Shown: one piece after another, positions 34,094-39,446 of the stretch
Layout: each line of letters starts with the position of its first letter
Numbering within the stretch: position 1 is the stretch's first letter
Source: Verrucomicrobiota bacterium
GTDB lineage: Bacteria > Verrucomicrobiota > Verrucomicrobiia > Chthoniobacterales > Chthoniobacteraceae
Direction of reading: 5' to 3'
Assembly (NCBI GenBank): GCA_026398235.1
Contig: JAPLTE010000127.1
Location: 1-44,817 of the forward strand
DNA length: 44,817 bases
Program-made: the position numbers and the translations under genes
The notes under the pieces: generated by a model
The model's input: only the letters and a program-made list of their open reading frames with translations
Databases searched by the model: none
What the model was told of the DNA's origin: nothing

Positions 34094-35182
34094 ATGATCG
34101 GCCTCTTCACACCACGTTATATCAAGAACGGCACGGAAATGCTCCACGCCGCCCGCAAAATGCTTTCGTATAAACGCGACCTGCTGAAACCCGAAGAAGT
34201 GCAGCGGGTGGAGGGGGATATTGCCCATCTCCAAGCCGCCTTGCGCCATCGTGACCGTCCGGCTGTGGAGAAAACCAGCCACGAACTCGACCGGTTTTTT
34301 GGAGAACGGTTTCCGACGCCCACGCACCCCGAGTTGCGCGAAAACTGTGAAGTGTTCCTGGTGGCCATTGTCATTGCCCTGGGCATCCGCACCTTTTTTC
34401 TCCAGCCGTTCACGATCCCCACCGGTTCCATGCAGCCGACCCTCAACGGGATCAAGGTGGAAGCCACCTTCGAGATGGCCTGCTACGGGCGCAGCTATTT
34501 CAATATCGTCTCCAAAGAGGACGACACGATTATTTCCATGCGGGATATCACCCGGTTGCGCTTTTTCAGCTACGCCGAAATCCAGTGCCTCAAGCAGACG
34601 TTCCTCATCCCGGCATCGGCCCGGGCCGTGGCCGAGCGTTTCAAATTACAGCCGGGCACTTCTTTTCAGGCGGGCCAGGTGGTGGCGCGCGGCTATGCCG
34701 ACACCGGCGACCATGTGTTCGTCAACAAGATGGCGTACAACTTCCGCAACCCGCGCCGGGGAGAGGTCTTCGTTTTCAGCACAGCGAATATTTTGACCGA
34801 GGAAAACAAGATGAATCCCGGGGGTCCGTCACAATATTATATCAAGCGCCTCGCCGGTTTGCCCGGGGATGAGTTGCGGGTGGATCCCCCCAAGCTTTTC
34901 ATCAATGGCAAGGTGGCCCACACCCCCGCCTTTGCCCGCGTCATGTCGGGCAGCTACGACCAACCGAACAACGGGTATAGAGGCTATGGCAATGGCCCGG
35001 CGTATCTCACCGACCCGGACTCGACTTTCCGCGTGCCCGAGAAACGCTACTTCGCCATGGGCGACAACTCCTACAACAGCGCCGACAGCCGGTATTGGGG
35101 CACCGTGCCGGAAGAAAATCTCGTGGGCTGCGGCCTCTTTGTCTATTGGCCCTTTACCCACCATTGGGGACTCATCCACTAA
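34094..35182 (+). CDS. lepB: Signal peptidase I LepB
   Basis: 362 residues, longer than E. coli LepB's roughly 320. There is a helical, charged N-terminal domain (1-84), one membrane helix (about 86-104), then the catalytic region. The serine is S112 in PTGSMQPT and the lysine K251 in YYIKRLAGLPGD. The last box is GDNSYNSADSRYWG. A 110-residue insertion between the serine and lysine boxes is notable. It removes signal peptides from exported proteins. The ATG 34094 lies 4 bp after the TMTC-like gene. Confidence 0.92.
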   Translation: MIGLFTPRYIKNGTEMLHAARKMLSYKRDLLKPEEVQRVEGDIAHLQAALRHRDRPAVEKTSHELDRFFGERFPTPTHPELRENCEVFLVAIVIALGIRTFFLQPFTIPTGSMQPTLNGIKVEATFEMACYGRSYFNIVSKEDDTIISMRDITRLRFFSYAEIQCLKQTFLIPASARAVAERFKLQPGTSFQAGQVVARGYADTGDHVFVNKMAYNFRNPRRGEVFVFSTANILTEENKMNPGGPSQYYIKRLAGLPGDELRVDPPKLFINGKVAHTPAFARVMSGSYDQPNNGYRGYGNGPAYLTDPDSTFRVPEKRYFAMGDNSYNSADSRYWGTVPEENLVGCGLFVYWPFTHHWGLIH

Positions 35183-35194
35183 ACCACCGCTCGC

Positions 35195-35902
35195 ATGCAC
35201 AACGAACTCCTCGCCTTGGCCCACTGGGCCGGAAACCACCCCGCCCGCCTTGTCCTCGGTTGCGAAGGGGCGGTCGCCGCAACTGTCCCTGACGGCGCAA
35301 CCTTTGTCATCAGCGCCACCCAGGCCAAGCTCATCGAGCTGCAAGCAGCAAACCTTGTGCAGTTGGATCTCGTCAAAGCGCGGGCGCTGATCGCTCTCGA
35401 AGACGCCACTCCCGAACAGCTTGCCGCCGCGCAGATGGATCCCGCCACCGAAGCTCCGAGCGCCGATGCTTTGGCGGTCGCCGATCTTTTCGCCTTTCCA
35501 GGCGTCCATTTTGCCCTCCATACCCAGCCGATCCCGGTCAACCAGGTGATCTGCTCTCCGCGCGCCCGGCAGTTCTCGGACCGCCGTAATCTCCCCGACG
35601 AAATCCTCGCCTGCGGCCAAGCCAGTGTGCTGGTGCCGTTCATGCCGCCGGGATTGCCCCTTGCGAAAGAAATCCGCCGCAGGATCGCCCTCTGGCGGGA
35701 CCGCTACAAAACCATCCCGCGGTTGATCCTCATCCAGAACCATGGGATGATTGCCTTGGGCGCAACCGCTGCGGAAGTGCAAACCATCACGGAAATGGCG
35801 GTCAAATACGCGGAGATTTTCATCGGTGCGGCCATGATGGGCGGGCCGGAATTTTTGAAGCCGAATTACGTGACGCAGATCGACGCTACAAAAATCGTTT
35901 AA
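35195..35902 (+). CDS. Class II aldolase/adducin-fold protein
   Basis: 235 residues matching the class II aldolase N-terminal domain. An early glycine-rich region contains ATVPDGATFVIS, a histidine pair HFALHTQP sits where the zinc-binding HxH normally lies, and LIQNHGMIALGAT carries the conserved late histidine. The zinc site looks partly changed (H-x3-H). Family members split sugar phosphates (fuculose, ribulose or rhamnulose phosphates) or have dehydratase/epimerase roles. The substrate is not predictable here. It follows lepB by 12 bp. Confidence 0.78.
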   Translation: MHNELLALAHWAGNHPARLVLGCEGAVAATVPDGATFVISATQAKLIELQAANLVQLDLVKARALIALEDATPEQLAAAQMDPATEAPSADALAVADLFAFPGVHFALHTQPIPVNQVICSPRARQFSDRRNLPDEILACGQASVLVPFMPPGLPLAKEIRRRIALWRDRYKTIPRLILIQNHGMIALGATAAEVQTITEMAVKYAEIFIGAAMMGGPEFLKPNYVTQIDATKIV

Positions 35903-35950
35903 TTTTTGGGGATGCAAAATGGGTCGCCCGTTTCGACCTCAATCGCCTTT

Positions 35951-37165
35951 ATGAATCCTGAACTCCGTTTCTGGCTGCTGGTCGCGGGCGCGCTTGCCGG
36001 GTACGGAGCGCTCCTGTTCGCAAACCCGGTCCGGGACTCCCTGCGCGACGGTTTGCGCTGCATACGGCGCTACCCGACGCTTTGGATCACACTCGCGGTT
36101 TTTGGTCTTTGCTATGCCCTTTTTCAACAAGTCGGCCTCCGCCTGCTCGACTTTTATCTCCTGCCTGAAGGGGAGCGGCCCATTTGGCAATGGACGCGCG
36201 CCTGGTTCCTGCCGCACACCTTCCAACTCGAAGCGGCCCAGCGTTCCGTGCTCCCGGCCCTGGAAAGTGTGGCGGGTCTTTTCAATAACGTCATCGCCAC
36301 CTTCCCGTTTTCAGTCGTGGCGGCGCTCCTGCTGCTCATCAATTGGAAAGGGCACCATCTGGTGCTCAACCGGGCGCTGCGCCGCCGTTATGGAACATGG
36401 GGCTGGATACTTTACGGGATCATTACGGCGGCCGCCATCGCCACCTTGGCCAAGCCGCTGGTGCTCTACGCAGGGCTCCCGTTTTTGGCGAGGTTCCTGC
36501 CGGGGGCCCTTCTGCTCGCCTCCGGGTTCACCATCGACTGGCTTTCCTTTCTGTTCGAATACCTCTTCGGCTTCTGTATTCAGATTTACCTGATCCTGCT
36601 CGTGTATGCGTGGGTGCGCGGCGTGAGCTTTACCCCGCAGCATCTTTTAGACTTCGCCATCCGGCGGTTTGCCGCCGTCCTGGAATGGGCCGCCGTCGTC
36701 CTCGCGCTCAGCTCGGCCCTCATTCATCTGCCGTTGATCCTGTCCACGCTCCCGCCGTTTTCCAGTTGGGTGGATGTCTCCACGGTAATCTCCTATGTCG
36801 GCCATGTCGCCCGGCCCGCGCTGGCGATTTTCCTGATTTTCTTTGCGACCTTCCAAATCACACTCACCTTTCACAGCGAATCGCTGGCTCACGCCTTGCG
36901 GGATCACTTGCGTTTTCTCCGGCGCAACGGGGGGGGACTTTGCTGGTTCCTCCTCATCGCATTCGTCCATTTTTACGCCTTCCATTTCCTCAACAACGCC
37001 CTCACGTTTGGCCTCGGCGCAGGGGCCGCGCAGGGAATCGCGTGGCAACTCGCCGCGCCGCTTCTGGAAGCGTTTGTTGCCGCCTGGCTACTGGCAAGCT
37101 GGGTTTGTTTTTTCAAAAAGTGCGTTTCCGGCCACGCGCACGACTCTCATTGGATCACTTTTTAA
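35951..37165 (+). CDS. Polytopic membrane protein coupled to a degenerate ABC ATPase
   Basis: 404 residues with about nine hydrophobic segments (near 8-24, 43-60, 115-131, 151-175, 184-225, 243-270, 286-305, 329-350 and 365-388). I recognise no family; it does not look like an FtsX- or LolC-type permease because there is no large periplasmic domain. An 8-G tract at about 36929-36936 encodes in-frame glycines. ATG 35951 is preferred to a TTG at 35906. The stop is 2 bp before the pseudo-ABC gene, whose Shine-Dalgarno (AAGGA) overlaps it, so the two are co-translated and likely form one complex. Confidence 0.75.
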   Translation: MNPELRFWLLVAGALAGYGALLFANPVRDSLRDGLRCIRRYPTLWITLAVFGLCYALFQQVGLRLLDFYLLPEGERPIWQWTRAWFLPHTFQLEAAQRSVLPALESVAGLFNNVIATFPFSVVAALLLLINWKGHHLVLNRALRRRYGTWGWILYGIITAAAIATLAKPLVLYAGLPFLARFLPGALLLASGFTIDWLSFLFEYLFGFCIQIYLILLVYAWVRGVSFTPQHLLDFAIRRFAAVLEWAAVVLALSSALIHLPLILSTLPPFSSWVDVSTVISYVGHVARPALAIFLIFFATFQITLTFHSESLAHALRDHLRFLRRNGGGLCWFLLIAFVHFYAFHFLNNALTFGLGAGAAQGIAWQLAAPLLEAFVAAWLLASWVCFFKKCVSGHAHDSHWITF

Positions 37166-37167
37166 GG

Positions 37168-37866
37168 ATGGACTCCCTCTTGGCACGCAACATCACTTTT
37201 TCCCGCACCGTTTCCGGCGCGCCCGAGCAACTGCATGCGATGACGCTCGGCTTTGAGCCCGCCTCCTTGCACCTCCTCTTCGGCGGCCCCGGCTCAGGGC
37301 GCAATTTGCTGCTGCGGCTCTTGGGCCTGCTTGAGCGCCCCGCTTCCGGCGAAATCGTCATTACTGGCGAATCGACCCGCGACTGGACCGAGGCCCAATG
37401 CACCGACTTCCGCAGCCGTTATTTTGGGTTCGTCTTTGAAGCCCCGCTGCTGCTGCCTTCCTTCAACGTCGTCGAAAACATCGCCACCCCCTATTTTAAG
37501 CTGACCGAAGCGACCCCCGAGCAAGCCCGCGAAGAAACCCACCGGGTGCTCGAGCACGTCGGCCTGAAAGACTACGCGGGCTCGGCCATCGAGGCGCTCC
37601 CGTTGTGGGCGCAACAGCGCGTCGCATTGGCCCGGGCGCTGATCACCCGTCCGCAGGCGATTTTTGTGGAAAACATCGACAGCTTCGCGCGCGATGGCGA
37701 GTTGATTTCCCTGCTCGAATTGCTCTCCGCCACCCGGCGTTCCCTGGGTTGCTGCATCATCGCCACTGCCGCCTCTCGGGATCTGGTCTATTTCGCCAAT
37801 CGCGCCGTGGAAATGGCCGAAGGCCGTATCGTGAGGGACTGGCGTCCCGGAGGGCTGCTCTCGTGA
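37168..37866 (+). CDS. Degenerate ABC-type ATPase (pseudo-ATPase), LolD-like
   Basis: 232 residues, full ABC nucleotide-binding-domain length and order, most like LolD/MacB-type domains. Every catalytic motif is altered: Walker A (39-46) reads GGPGSGRN, with Lys replaced by R45 and Ser/Thr by N46; the Q-loop glutamine is E91; the signature LSGGQ is LPLWA (144-148); Walker B Asp-Glu is E168-N169; and no H-loop histidine is present near 200-204. The open frame has no stops, so it is a maintained protein, not a pseudogene. It lies between a nine-helix membrane protein and a squalene/phytoene synthase gene, overlapping the latter by GTGA. A regulatory or scaffolding subunit is the best guess. Confidence 0.85.
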   Translation: MDSLLARNITFSRTVSGAPEQLHAMTLGFEPASLHLLFGGPGSGRNLLLRLLGLLERPASGEIVITGESTRDWTEAQCTDFRSRYFGFVFEAPLLLPSFNVVENIATPYFKLTEATPEQAREETHRVLEHVGLKDYAGSAIEALPLWAQQRVALARALITRPQAIFVENIDSFARDGELISLLELLSATRRSLGCCIIATAASRDLVYFANRAVEMAEGRIVRDWRPGGLLS

Positions 37867-38699
37867 ACCCGCCCCCTTCCAGCGCCGAGGCGATCACCCG
37901 TTCCAGCAAGAGCAATTTCGCCCTCGCCTTCCTCGCCCTGCCGCCGGAGCGCCGCCGGGATTTGACGACGTTTTACGCCTTTTGCCGCGTGATTGACGAC
38001 CTCGCCGACCAACCCGGGCGGTCGCCTGAAGAAAAAAAAGGCCAGCTCTCCGAATGGAAACGGGCGCTCTCCGAATCTTTCGATGGGGAACCGCCTCTCG
38101 CCGCCGAAGTGCGGGCGCTGAGGGCCAAATACGGCATCGGCGCGGAGCTTTTGGCGGAACTGATCCAAGGGTGTGAGATGGACCTCGTTCCCGCCCGGTA
38201 CCAAACCAGTGAAGATCTTCTGCGCTATTGTTACCGCGTGGCGAGTGTGGTCGGGCTGGCGAGCATCGAAATTTTTGGCTATCAGAATCCCGCGACGAAA
38301 GAGTATGCGATTGAACTCGGCTACGCCTTGCAATGGACAAATATCGTGCGCGATGTCGCCACCGATTTTGCGAACGGCGGGCGCATTTACCTGCCGCTGG
38401 AGGATTTTGCCCGTTTCGGCATCACCCCCGAAGACCTCGCCTTGCGCAAGGGCGGGCCGCGTTTCGGCGAGTTGATGGCCTTTGAAGCCGAGCGTGCGGA
38501 AAGTTTTTACGCGCGCGCCCTGGCCAAGCTGCCGCCCGAAGACCGCCATTCCCTGGCCCCCGCCGAAATCATGCGACGCATCTACCATCGGCTCCTTAAA
38601 AAAATGCGTCGCGACGGCTTCCGCGTTTTCGAGAAGGAATATCGTCTCGGCAAACTCGAAAAGCTCGCCATGGCGGCCCGTGTCCTGCTGGGATGCTAG
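37863..38699 (+). CDS. Squalene/phytoene synthase family protein (HpnD/CrtB-like)
   Basis: 278 residues. First aspartate-rich motif YAFCRVIDDLAD, then YCYRVASVVG and the second motif NIVRDVATD followed by RIYLPLEDF, as in HpnD, HpnC and CrtB. It condenses two prenyl diphosphates, most likely farnesyl diphosphate to presqualene diphosphate for hopanoids or geranylgeranyl diphosphate to phytoene; the sequence alone does not decide. The start is GTG 37863, overlapping the pseudo-ABC stop. No other terpenoid gene is in the window. Confidence 0.88.
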   Translation: MNPPPSSAEAITRSSKSNFALAFLALPPERRRDLTTFYAFCRVIDDLADQPGRSPEEKKGQLSEWKRALSESFDGEPPLAAEVRALRAKYGIGAELLAELIQGCEMDLVPARYQTSEDLLRYCYRVASVVGLASIEIFGYQNPATKEYAIELGYALQWTNIVRDVATDFANGGRIYLPLEDFARFGITPEDLALRKGGPRFGELMAFEAERAESFYARALAKLPPEDRHSLAPAEIMRRIYHRLLKKMRRDGFRVFEKEYRLGKLEKLAMAARVLLGC

Positions 38700-38757: not shown

Positions 38758-38997
38758 ATGAAAAAGCTATCCATTCTTACTGCAACAGGTTGCGCGCTCG
38801 TCACGATCAGTTTTTCAGGCTGTGAAACCCCGACGCAAGGGGCCGGAACCGGCGCAGCGGCTGGTGCGATTATCGGCGGGATTGCAGGAGGCAACATTCG
38901 GAGTGCTGCGATCGGCGCAGGAGCCGGGGCGCTCACGGGAGCGGCGATCGGCCAGTCTAATAAAGAACAGGCAATCCGTCGGGGTTATTATTATTGA
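38758..38997 (+). CDS. Glycine-zipper lipoprotein 1
   Basis: 79 residues: a signal peptide ending at a lipobox-like FSGC (Cys near residue 22), then GCETPTQ and a glycine/alanine-rich zipper (GAAAGAIIGGIAGG, AIGAGAGALTGAAIG) and a short basic, tyrosine-rich tail. Glycine-zipper lipoproteins usually insert in or brace the outer membrane. ATG 38758 is preceded by AGTAAG. It is a paralogue of the next gene; the two share the signal-to-zipper region almost position by position. Confidence 0.75.
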   Translation: MKKLSILTATGCALVTISFSGCETPTQGAGTGAAAGAIIGGIAGGNIRSAAIGAGAGALTGAAIGQSNKEQAIRRGYYY

Positions 38998-39062
38998 ACA
39001 GAACGCAACAAAACAGCGTCGAATGTGATAGACAGTTCAAATCTGCCAACAAAATTATCTTT

Positions 39063-39446
39063 ATGAGAAATCTTCCCATAGCTGTTATCGCCGGAACCGC
39101 CCTCGTGACCATGAGCTTTTCCGGGTGTGAAACTCCCACAGGCCAAGGCGCGGGATTTGGAGCCGCCACCGGAGCCATTCTCGGGGGCATCGCGGGTAAC
39201 AATGTCCGGGGAGCCGCCATTGGGGCGGGTGCTGGTGCGTTGGCGGGCGCAGTGATCGGGCACCTTGCCGCAGAAGACCGCCGCGCGGGTTATGTGGGGT
39301 ACGAATACCGGGTGGCCTCGCCCTCGCGGCATTACGGCTATGTAGTCAGCCCGTACAGGCCGTTTGCGCTGGTGGATGTTCGGGGCATCCGCTCGGGGGC
39401 ACGCGTGATGGACCCGGTCAGTGAACGCGTCTTTATCAACCCGTAA
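39063..39446 (+). CDS. Glycine-zipper lipoprotein 2
   Basis: 127 residues. The signal peptide ends MSFSGC, followed by ETPTGQGAGFGAATGAILGG and the zipper AAIGAGAGALAGAVIGH. A C-terminal extension (about 75-127), absent from its neighbour, is tyrosine- and arginine-rich (YRVASPSRHYGYVVSPYRP), with a possible small beta domain (VMDPVSERVFINP). Tandem duplicate of the preceding gene, 65 bp apart. The MITE-like element lies 28 bp beyond its stop. Confidence 0.78.
   Translation: MRNLPIAVIAGTALVTMSFSGCETPTGQGAGFGAATGAILGGIAGNNVRGAAIGAGAGALAGAVIGHLAAEDRRAGYVGYEYRVASPSRHYGYVVSPYRPFALVDVRGIRSGARVMDPVSERVFINP

Follow-up and report, generated by a model that had tools for sequence, protein, structure and literature searches.

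The window analysed here, a 44,817-nucleotide stretch of DNA from a Verrucomicrobiota bacterium, contains a gene for an ABC protein in which every catalytic motif has been replaced within an intact reading frame, and the question raised by this locus is what such a protein is kept for. The initial annotation had proposed selection for a non-hydrolysing role in a lipid-related setting, with an upstream polytopic membrane protein as the principal partner. The genes concerned, all on the forward strand, are as follows.

34103 to 35182, forward strand: lepB, signal peptidase I (start of the homologous part; Pfam Peptidase_S26), which may be the ancestral neighbour of the synthase gene
35195 to 35902, forward strand: class II aldolase-like gene, flanked by lepB and the membrane-protein gene, found in some loci of the order and not in others
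35912 to 37165, forward strand: polytopic membrane protein of an order-restricted family, an optional partner (alternative start ATG at 35951)
37168 to 37866, forward strand: dead LolD-like ABC protein, 232 amino acids plus a TGA stop, intact frame (Pfam ABC_tran)
37863 to 38699, forward strand: HpnD-like squalene/phytoene synthase (Pfam SQS_PSY, 237 bits), its GTG start overlapping the ABC stop (GTGA)

An ABC domain without catalytic residues

The product of the ABC gene was recognized as an ABC domain by Pfam ABC_tran (58 bits). LolD was both the best NCBIfam model, at 99.3 bits and below the curated TIGR02211 cut-off of 307.75, and the nearest sequence in the PDB (E 1e-22). The positions of the degenerate motifs were established from sequence and alignment, and these are listed together with the segment considered further below.

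37282 to 37308, forward strand: degenerate Walker A, GGPGSGRNL
37438 to 37440, forward strand: Q-loop position, residue 91, Gln replaced by Glu
37462 to 37500, forward strand: segment 99-111 (FNVVENIATPYFK), the best-conserved 13-residue window of the dead family, which borders the coupling-helix groove in LolD and FtsE
37597 to 37611, forward strand: degenerate signature, LPLWA
37660 to 37674, forward strand: degenerate Walker B, IFVEN
37771 to 37773, forward strand: H-loop position, His replaced by Ala

Walker A reads GGPGSGRN, with Arg in place of Lys and Asn in place of Ser/Thr, and so does not match GxxGxGK[ST]; the Walker B Asp-Glu pair is Glu-Asn. Together with the changes in the signature, Q-loop and H-loop, this removes all of the motifs by which a functional LolD-, FtsE- or MacB-type ATPase was assessed. 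The protein was then aligned to 21 intact paralogues encoded in genomes of the order, and nine positions (Walker A Lys and Ser/Thr, the Q-loop Gln, the signature Ser-Gly-Gly, Walker B Asp and Glu, and the H-loop His) were scored as catalytic or nucleotide-contact residues. Each intact paralogue carried nine of nine and the window protein carried none, and the motif losses described in the initial annotation were thereby confirmed in full. An AlphaFold2 model of the protein predicted a complete nucleotide-binding domain (NBD) fold with high confidence (pLDDT 93.6; TM-scores of 0.83-0.91 to solved NBDs), matching MJ0796, MetN, LolD and MacB.

Upstream of the ABC start, the same frame is free of stop codons for about 275 further codons, across the membrane-protein gene (36343-37866). 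Gene callers could misplace the ABC start on account of this high-G+C shadow frame.

Relatives, selection and a conserved segment

Relatives were searched in 57 genomes of the order and in a species-representative collection. In the raw search all 57 genomes gave a match, a figure that is uninformative, as the scores of intact paralogues reach those of divergent dead members; dead members were instead told from ordinary paralogues by synteny and motifs, which left 53 distinct dead sequences. The same kind of motif loss was present in relatives from 31 of the 57 genomes. The species-representative collection yielded 43 confirmed loci, all in Verrucomicrobiota and including Chthoniobacter flavus Ellin428; this search relied on a single short peptide pattern, and divergent members elsewhere may have escaped it. 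The 53 dead sequences, from Chthoniobacterales, lay on one side of a branch with support 100, opposite the 21 intact paralogues; the tree also contains some long branches. No close homologue with intact motifs was found among the 53, the intact proteins forming the separate paralogue branch.

Loss of the scored residues was extensive throughout: none was kept in 16 of the 53 and one in 24 (zero or one in 40 of 53), with a maximum of four. The Walker B Asp and the H-loop His were kept in no sequence, the Q-loop Gln in one, the two signature glycines in one and three, the Walker A Ser/Thr in four and the Walker B Glu in eight. The exception was the Walker A Lys, which was retained in 33 of 53. 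The expectation that the motif losses would be fixed in homologues therefore held, or very nearly so, for the Walker B Asp, the H-loop His, the Q-loop Gln, the Gly-Gly pair and Ser/Thr, but failed for this Lys. The residue after the Lys is usually Asn or Gly and, because the Lys is so widely kept, its replacement by Arg in the window's genus probably came later. Some members have lost both the P-loop Gly and the Lys, the D-loop is not conserved, and the Walker B/D-loop stretch is shorter in one subclade. Judged from these residues, ordinary binding of Mg-ATP is unlikely, since the Walker B Asp, Q-loop, H-loop and signature residues are lost, yet the P-loop Lys persists in 33 of the 53.

The dN/dS ratio of the ABC gene among five congeners was 0.11-0.32, similar to the flanking lepB (0.11-0.30) and synthase (0.09-0.28) genes, although these are Nei-Gojobori values from pairs many of which have a dS close to 1 or higher, and are reliable to an order of magnitude only. 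This is the purifying selection that the initial annotation had suggested looking for, and the reading frame was unbroken in every relative collected, with none of the interruptions that would have spoken for decay. As the family is order-wide, forms one clade and has low dN/dS, the catalytic loss is ancient and is not recent decay, and selection has maintained the dead ABC throughout an order of soil and freshwater bacteria. Selection for a non-hydrolysing role is accordingly well supported.

The pattern of conservation within the protein has shifted. Segment 99-111, which follows the pattern FxVxENxAMPLFK in the dead family, had a Jensen-Shannon conservation of 0.74, compared with 0.61 in the intact paralogues; it was chosen after its conservation had been seen, and its permutation value is descriptive only. 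The catalytic positions moved the other way, at 0.41 in the dead family versus 0.79 in the intact paralogues, and in the dead family they fall below the family mean. In Streptococcus pneumoniae FtsE, regions 71-79, 86-96 and 101-115 form the cavity for the FtsX coupling helix (PMC7468199), and in LolD the region likewise lines the coupling-helix groove (PMC11671585). Aligning FtsE Gln88 to Glu91 would place residues 89-118 of the dead ABC in the coupling-cavity region. It could be that folding, not binding, is the cause of the gained conservation.

Gene partners of the dead ABC

The claim that the ABC gene is co-translated with its neighbours is borne out by both junctions. Two nucleotides separate the end of the membrane-protein gene at 37165 from the ATG of the ABC gene, whose TGA in turn shares bases with the GTG start of the synthase gene. 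The membrane-protein family gave no significant Pfam or NCBIfam match, has invariant charged and Trp residues and, in a class sample of 236 genomes, occurred in this order only. It was considered as a known ABC permease and rejected, there being neither a Pfam/NCBIfam match nor a convincing fold match (the best Foldseek match was TTYH2, E 2e-3 with a TM-score of 0.12; CTL1 had a TM-score of 0.34). An internal repeat was also rejected, as an hhalign self-comparison gave a negligible match only.

Of the four congeners, two (G002 and G003) have no membrane gene in their genomes, and in these the ABC gene is still under purifying selection. The membrane gene also stands beside the synthase gene in five genomes of the relatives set that lack the ABC gene there. 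Among 78 synthase loci within the order, 30 had both the ABC and membrane genes, 23 the ABC gene only, seven the membrane gene only and 18 neither; when mapped on a 101-synthase tree, the ABC label required 10 changes and the membrane label 14. Conservation of segment 99-111 was 0.75 in loci with the membrane gene and 0.74 in loci without it, so the membrane protein alone cannot explain the segment. The loci that lack it and the unchanged conservation rule out the membrane protein as an obligate partner, and the core role first assigned to it is not supported.

The constant partner of the dead ABC gene is instead the downstream HpnD-like synthase. The ABC gene lies directly upstream of the synthase gene in nearly all loci where both are visible, the exception being one genome (G011) in which the two are ~ 70 kb apart on the same contig. 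A 4-nt stop/start overlap of the form NTGA was present in 45 of 50 distinct junctions, the window having GTGA. Note, however, that overlapping genes are evidence of co-production and not of complex formation. This near-invariant pairing with a squalene/phytoene-synthase-type gene upholds the lipid-related context proposed at the outset. Outside the order the dead ABC was adjacent in none of 23 sampled synthase loci, and within it several lineages, including two with 0.9 Mb genomes, have the synthase without the ABC gene. Since the synthase persists in this way, the ABC protein can be no more than an accessory that takes no part in the chemistry.

In the two strongly reduced 0.9 Mb genomes (G041 and G050; loci L202 and L205) both synthases are kept, without the ABC and membrane genes beside them; the ABC and membrane genes are both present in a congeneric genome of 2.5 Mb (L155). 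In another family of the class, lepB is directly beside the synthase gene with neither the ABC nor the membrane gene between them (L127-L133). The lepB-synthase order may therefore be ancestral, and a simple history would be insertion of the membrane and ABC genes between the two. The synthase gene is followed by a tandem pair of similar genes whose products are small, lipoprotein-like glycine-zipper proteins (38775-38999 and ~ 39063-39446).

The synthase has invariant Asp motifs and scored 273.4 bits against the HpnD model (NCBIfam TIGR03465; cut-off 278.6), with 16 of 57 relatives above the cut-off. Genomes of the order carry this HpnD-like enzyme together with a second, distant squalene-synthase homologue, which in the window's genome (L149, contig C126) resembles the eukaryote-type squalene synthase; the second homologue has a hydrophobic C-terminal helix. 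The two enzymes may split the two squalene half-reactions. HpnE was not found above cut-off in 38 genomes. A hopanoid-only role was set aside because no squalene-hopene cyclase match was present in the window's genome, which is 95% complete. That genome has two crtI-type desaturases; a carotenoid-only role was likewise rejected, as such desaturases were above cut-off in just 10 of 38 genomes and the HpnD-like gene is near universal.

Interpretation and comparison with known systems

The explanation we prefer, and hold tentatively at somewhat less than an even chance, is that the dead ABC is a pseudo-ATPase serving through its coupling groove as a non-catalytic docking or regulatory subunit of the HpnD-like synthase. 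The gene pairing, the 4-nt overlaps, the conservation of segment 99-111 and the full NBD fold support a partnership with the synthase. Near the base of Chthoniobacterales, a LolD-type ABC domain would have ceased to hydrolyse nucleotide and been retained as the dedicated partner of the head-to-head prenyl synthase encoded directly downstream. Translational coupling most likely causes the two proteins to be made together, and they would probably bind each other. Docking to the synthase or to a membrane anchor would occur through the groove into which, in LolD and FtsE, the coupling helix of the permease fits, and the static ABC subunit might thereby hold the soluble synthase at the membrane, the site of its lipid substrate and product, or tune its activity. 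The upstream membrane protein could provide the membrane side of the assembly in many species, and would not be essential to it. Binding between the two proteins, use of the groove, membrane docking and an effect on the synthase are what we infer, and the wider proposition, that an ABC fold was converted once into a stand-alone, non-hydrolysing isoprenoid-synthase subunit with the old permease-coupling groove as its binding surface, is put forward with a degree of reserve.

A different role for the same gene pair would be that of a sensor, in which the remaining P-loop binds a nucleotide, diphosphate or isoprenoid diphosphate without hydrolysing it and signals the precursor level to the synthase. 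The retained Lys in 33 of 53 relatives, usually followed by Asn or Gly, and the release of diphosphate by the paired enzyme would suit such a role, as perhaps would the Arg of the window's genus. Against it, the Walker B Asp and H-loop His are gone in every member, the Q-loop Gln in 52 of 53 and the Ser/Thr in 49 of 53, some members have lost the P-loop Gly and Lys altogether, and the catalytic site is conserved below the family mean; we regard a sensor as unlikely. The absence of both sides of the ATP sandwich, Walker and signature, together with the unconserved D-loop, bears also on the idea of a regulatory half-site, a dead NBD that pairs with an intact one such as LolD or docks without hydrolysis on a LolC/MacB-type permease. 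Known heterodimers keep one working site, and no gene for a permease of that type was found adjacent in the loci read. The LolD-type ancestry, the retained coupling-groove segment and the precedent of dead NBDs in working heterodimers (PMC7756269) speak for a half-site, which we nevertheless consider even less likely than a sensor.

An equally unlikely reading is a two-component membrane complex, in which the ABC protein scaffolds the polytopic membrane protein (nine helices in the initial annotation) and the synthase is a mere neighbour. The two genes are adjacent and closely spaced in the window, the membrane gene occurs in 30 of 53 ABC loci, and both proteins are limited to the order in the samples searched. 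It is with the synthase gene, however, that the 4-nt overlap is shared, the membrane gene is missing in congeners G002 and G003, membrane protein and synthase occur without the ABC in five genomes of relatives, and the groove is as well conserved without the membrane gene as with it. The loss of every catalytic motif and the presence of some long branches might suggest a decaying pseudogene, a reading that we find barely credible: frames are intact in all collected relatives of this order-wide clade, dN/dS is 0.11-0.32, and invariant columns and a high-confidence predicted fold are retained. A recent pseudogene is ruled out by the dN/dS values and by conservation across the order.

LolD is the ATPase of the LolCDE lipoprotein exporter and belongs, with FtsE and MacB, to the type VII ABC systems. 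It is the best sequence match to the dead ABC and shares its fold and its post-Q-loop segment; in contrast to LolD, the dead ABC reaches only 99 bits of a 308-bit cut-off, has lost all of its catalytic residues in the window protein and has no adjacent LolC/LolE-type permease. FtsE/FtsX offers the parallel of an ABC pair without transport, in which FtsE makes contact through a groove lined by the same segment (PMC7468199), but FtsE retains its ATPase motifs and the membrane protein here has no detected similarity to FtsX. Degenerate ABC sites, of which site 1 of Pdr5 is among the most extreme, are halves of working transporters, and in Pdr5 site 1 the Walker A Lys, Walker B Glu, H-loop His and signature are likewise replaced and the replacements held by selection (PMC7756269). 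The degenerate exporter sites compared (Pdr5 site 1, TAP, MRP1 and TM287/288) each belong to a working transporter that has a second site and membrane domains of its own, whereas the dead ABC is stand-alone, has neither side of the sandwich left and has an enzyme gene as its constant neighbour.

The coupled synthase resembles HpnD, presqualene diphosphate synthase (273 bits against a cut-off of 278.6), but its setting differs from that of HpnD in having no second strong HpnC-type match adjacent and no HpnE above cut-off in the 38 genomes. To our knowledge, classical hpnCDE loci do not include an ABC gene, and no description of a stand-alone dead ABC coupled to a prenyl synthase gene was found in the open-licence literature searched. 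Genes of this family risk annotation as ABC transporter ATPases. Were the preferred reading, a docking or regulatory subunit of the synthase, to be correct, the protein would be an ABC protein serving an enzyme and not a transporter. The family also offers a testable handle on the placement or regulation of HpnD-like synthases in Verrucomicrobiota, which are soluble enzymes with greasy substrates and products. With its catalytic residues lost and its frame under purifying selection, the stand-alone dead ABC family is a pseudoenzyme from the ABC superfamily and, in a superfamily whose defining feature is motion driven by ATP, a clean natural setting in which to study the ABC fold without ATP.
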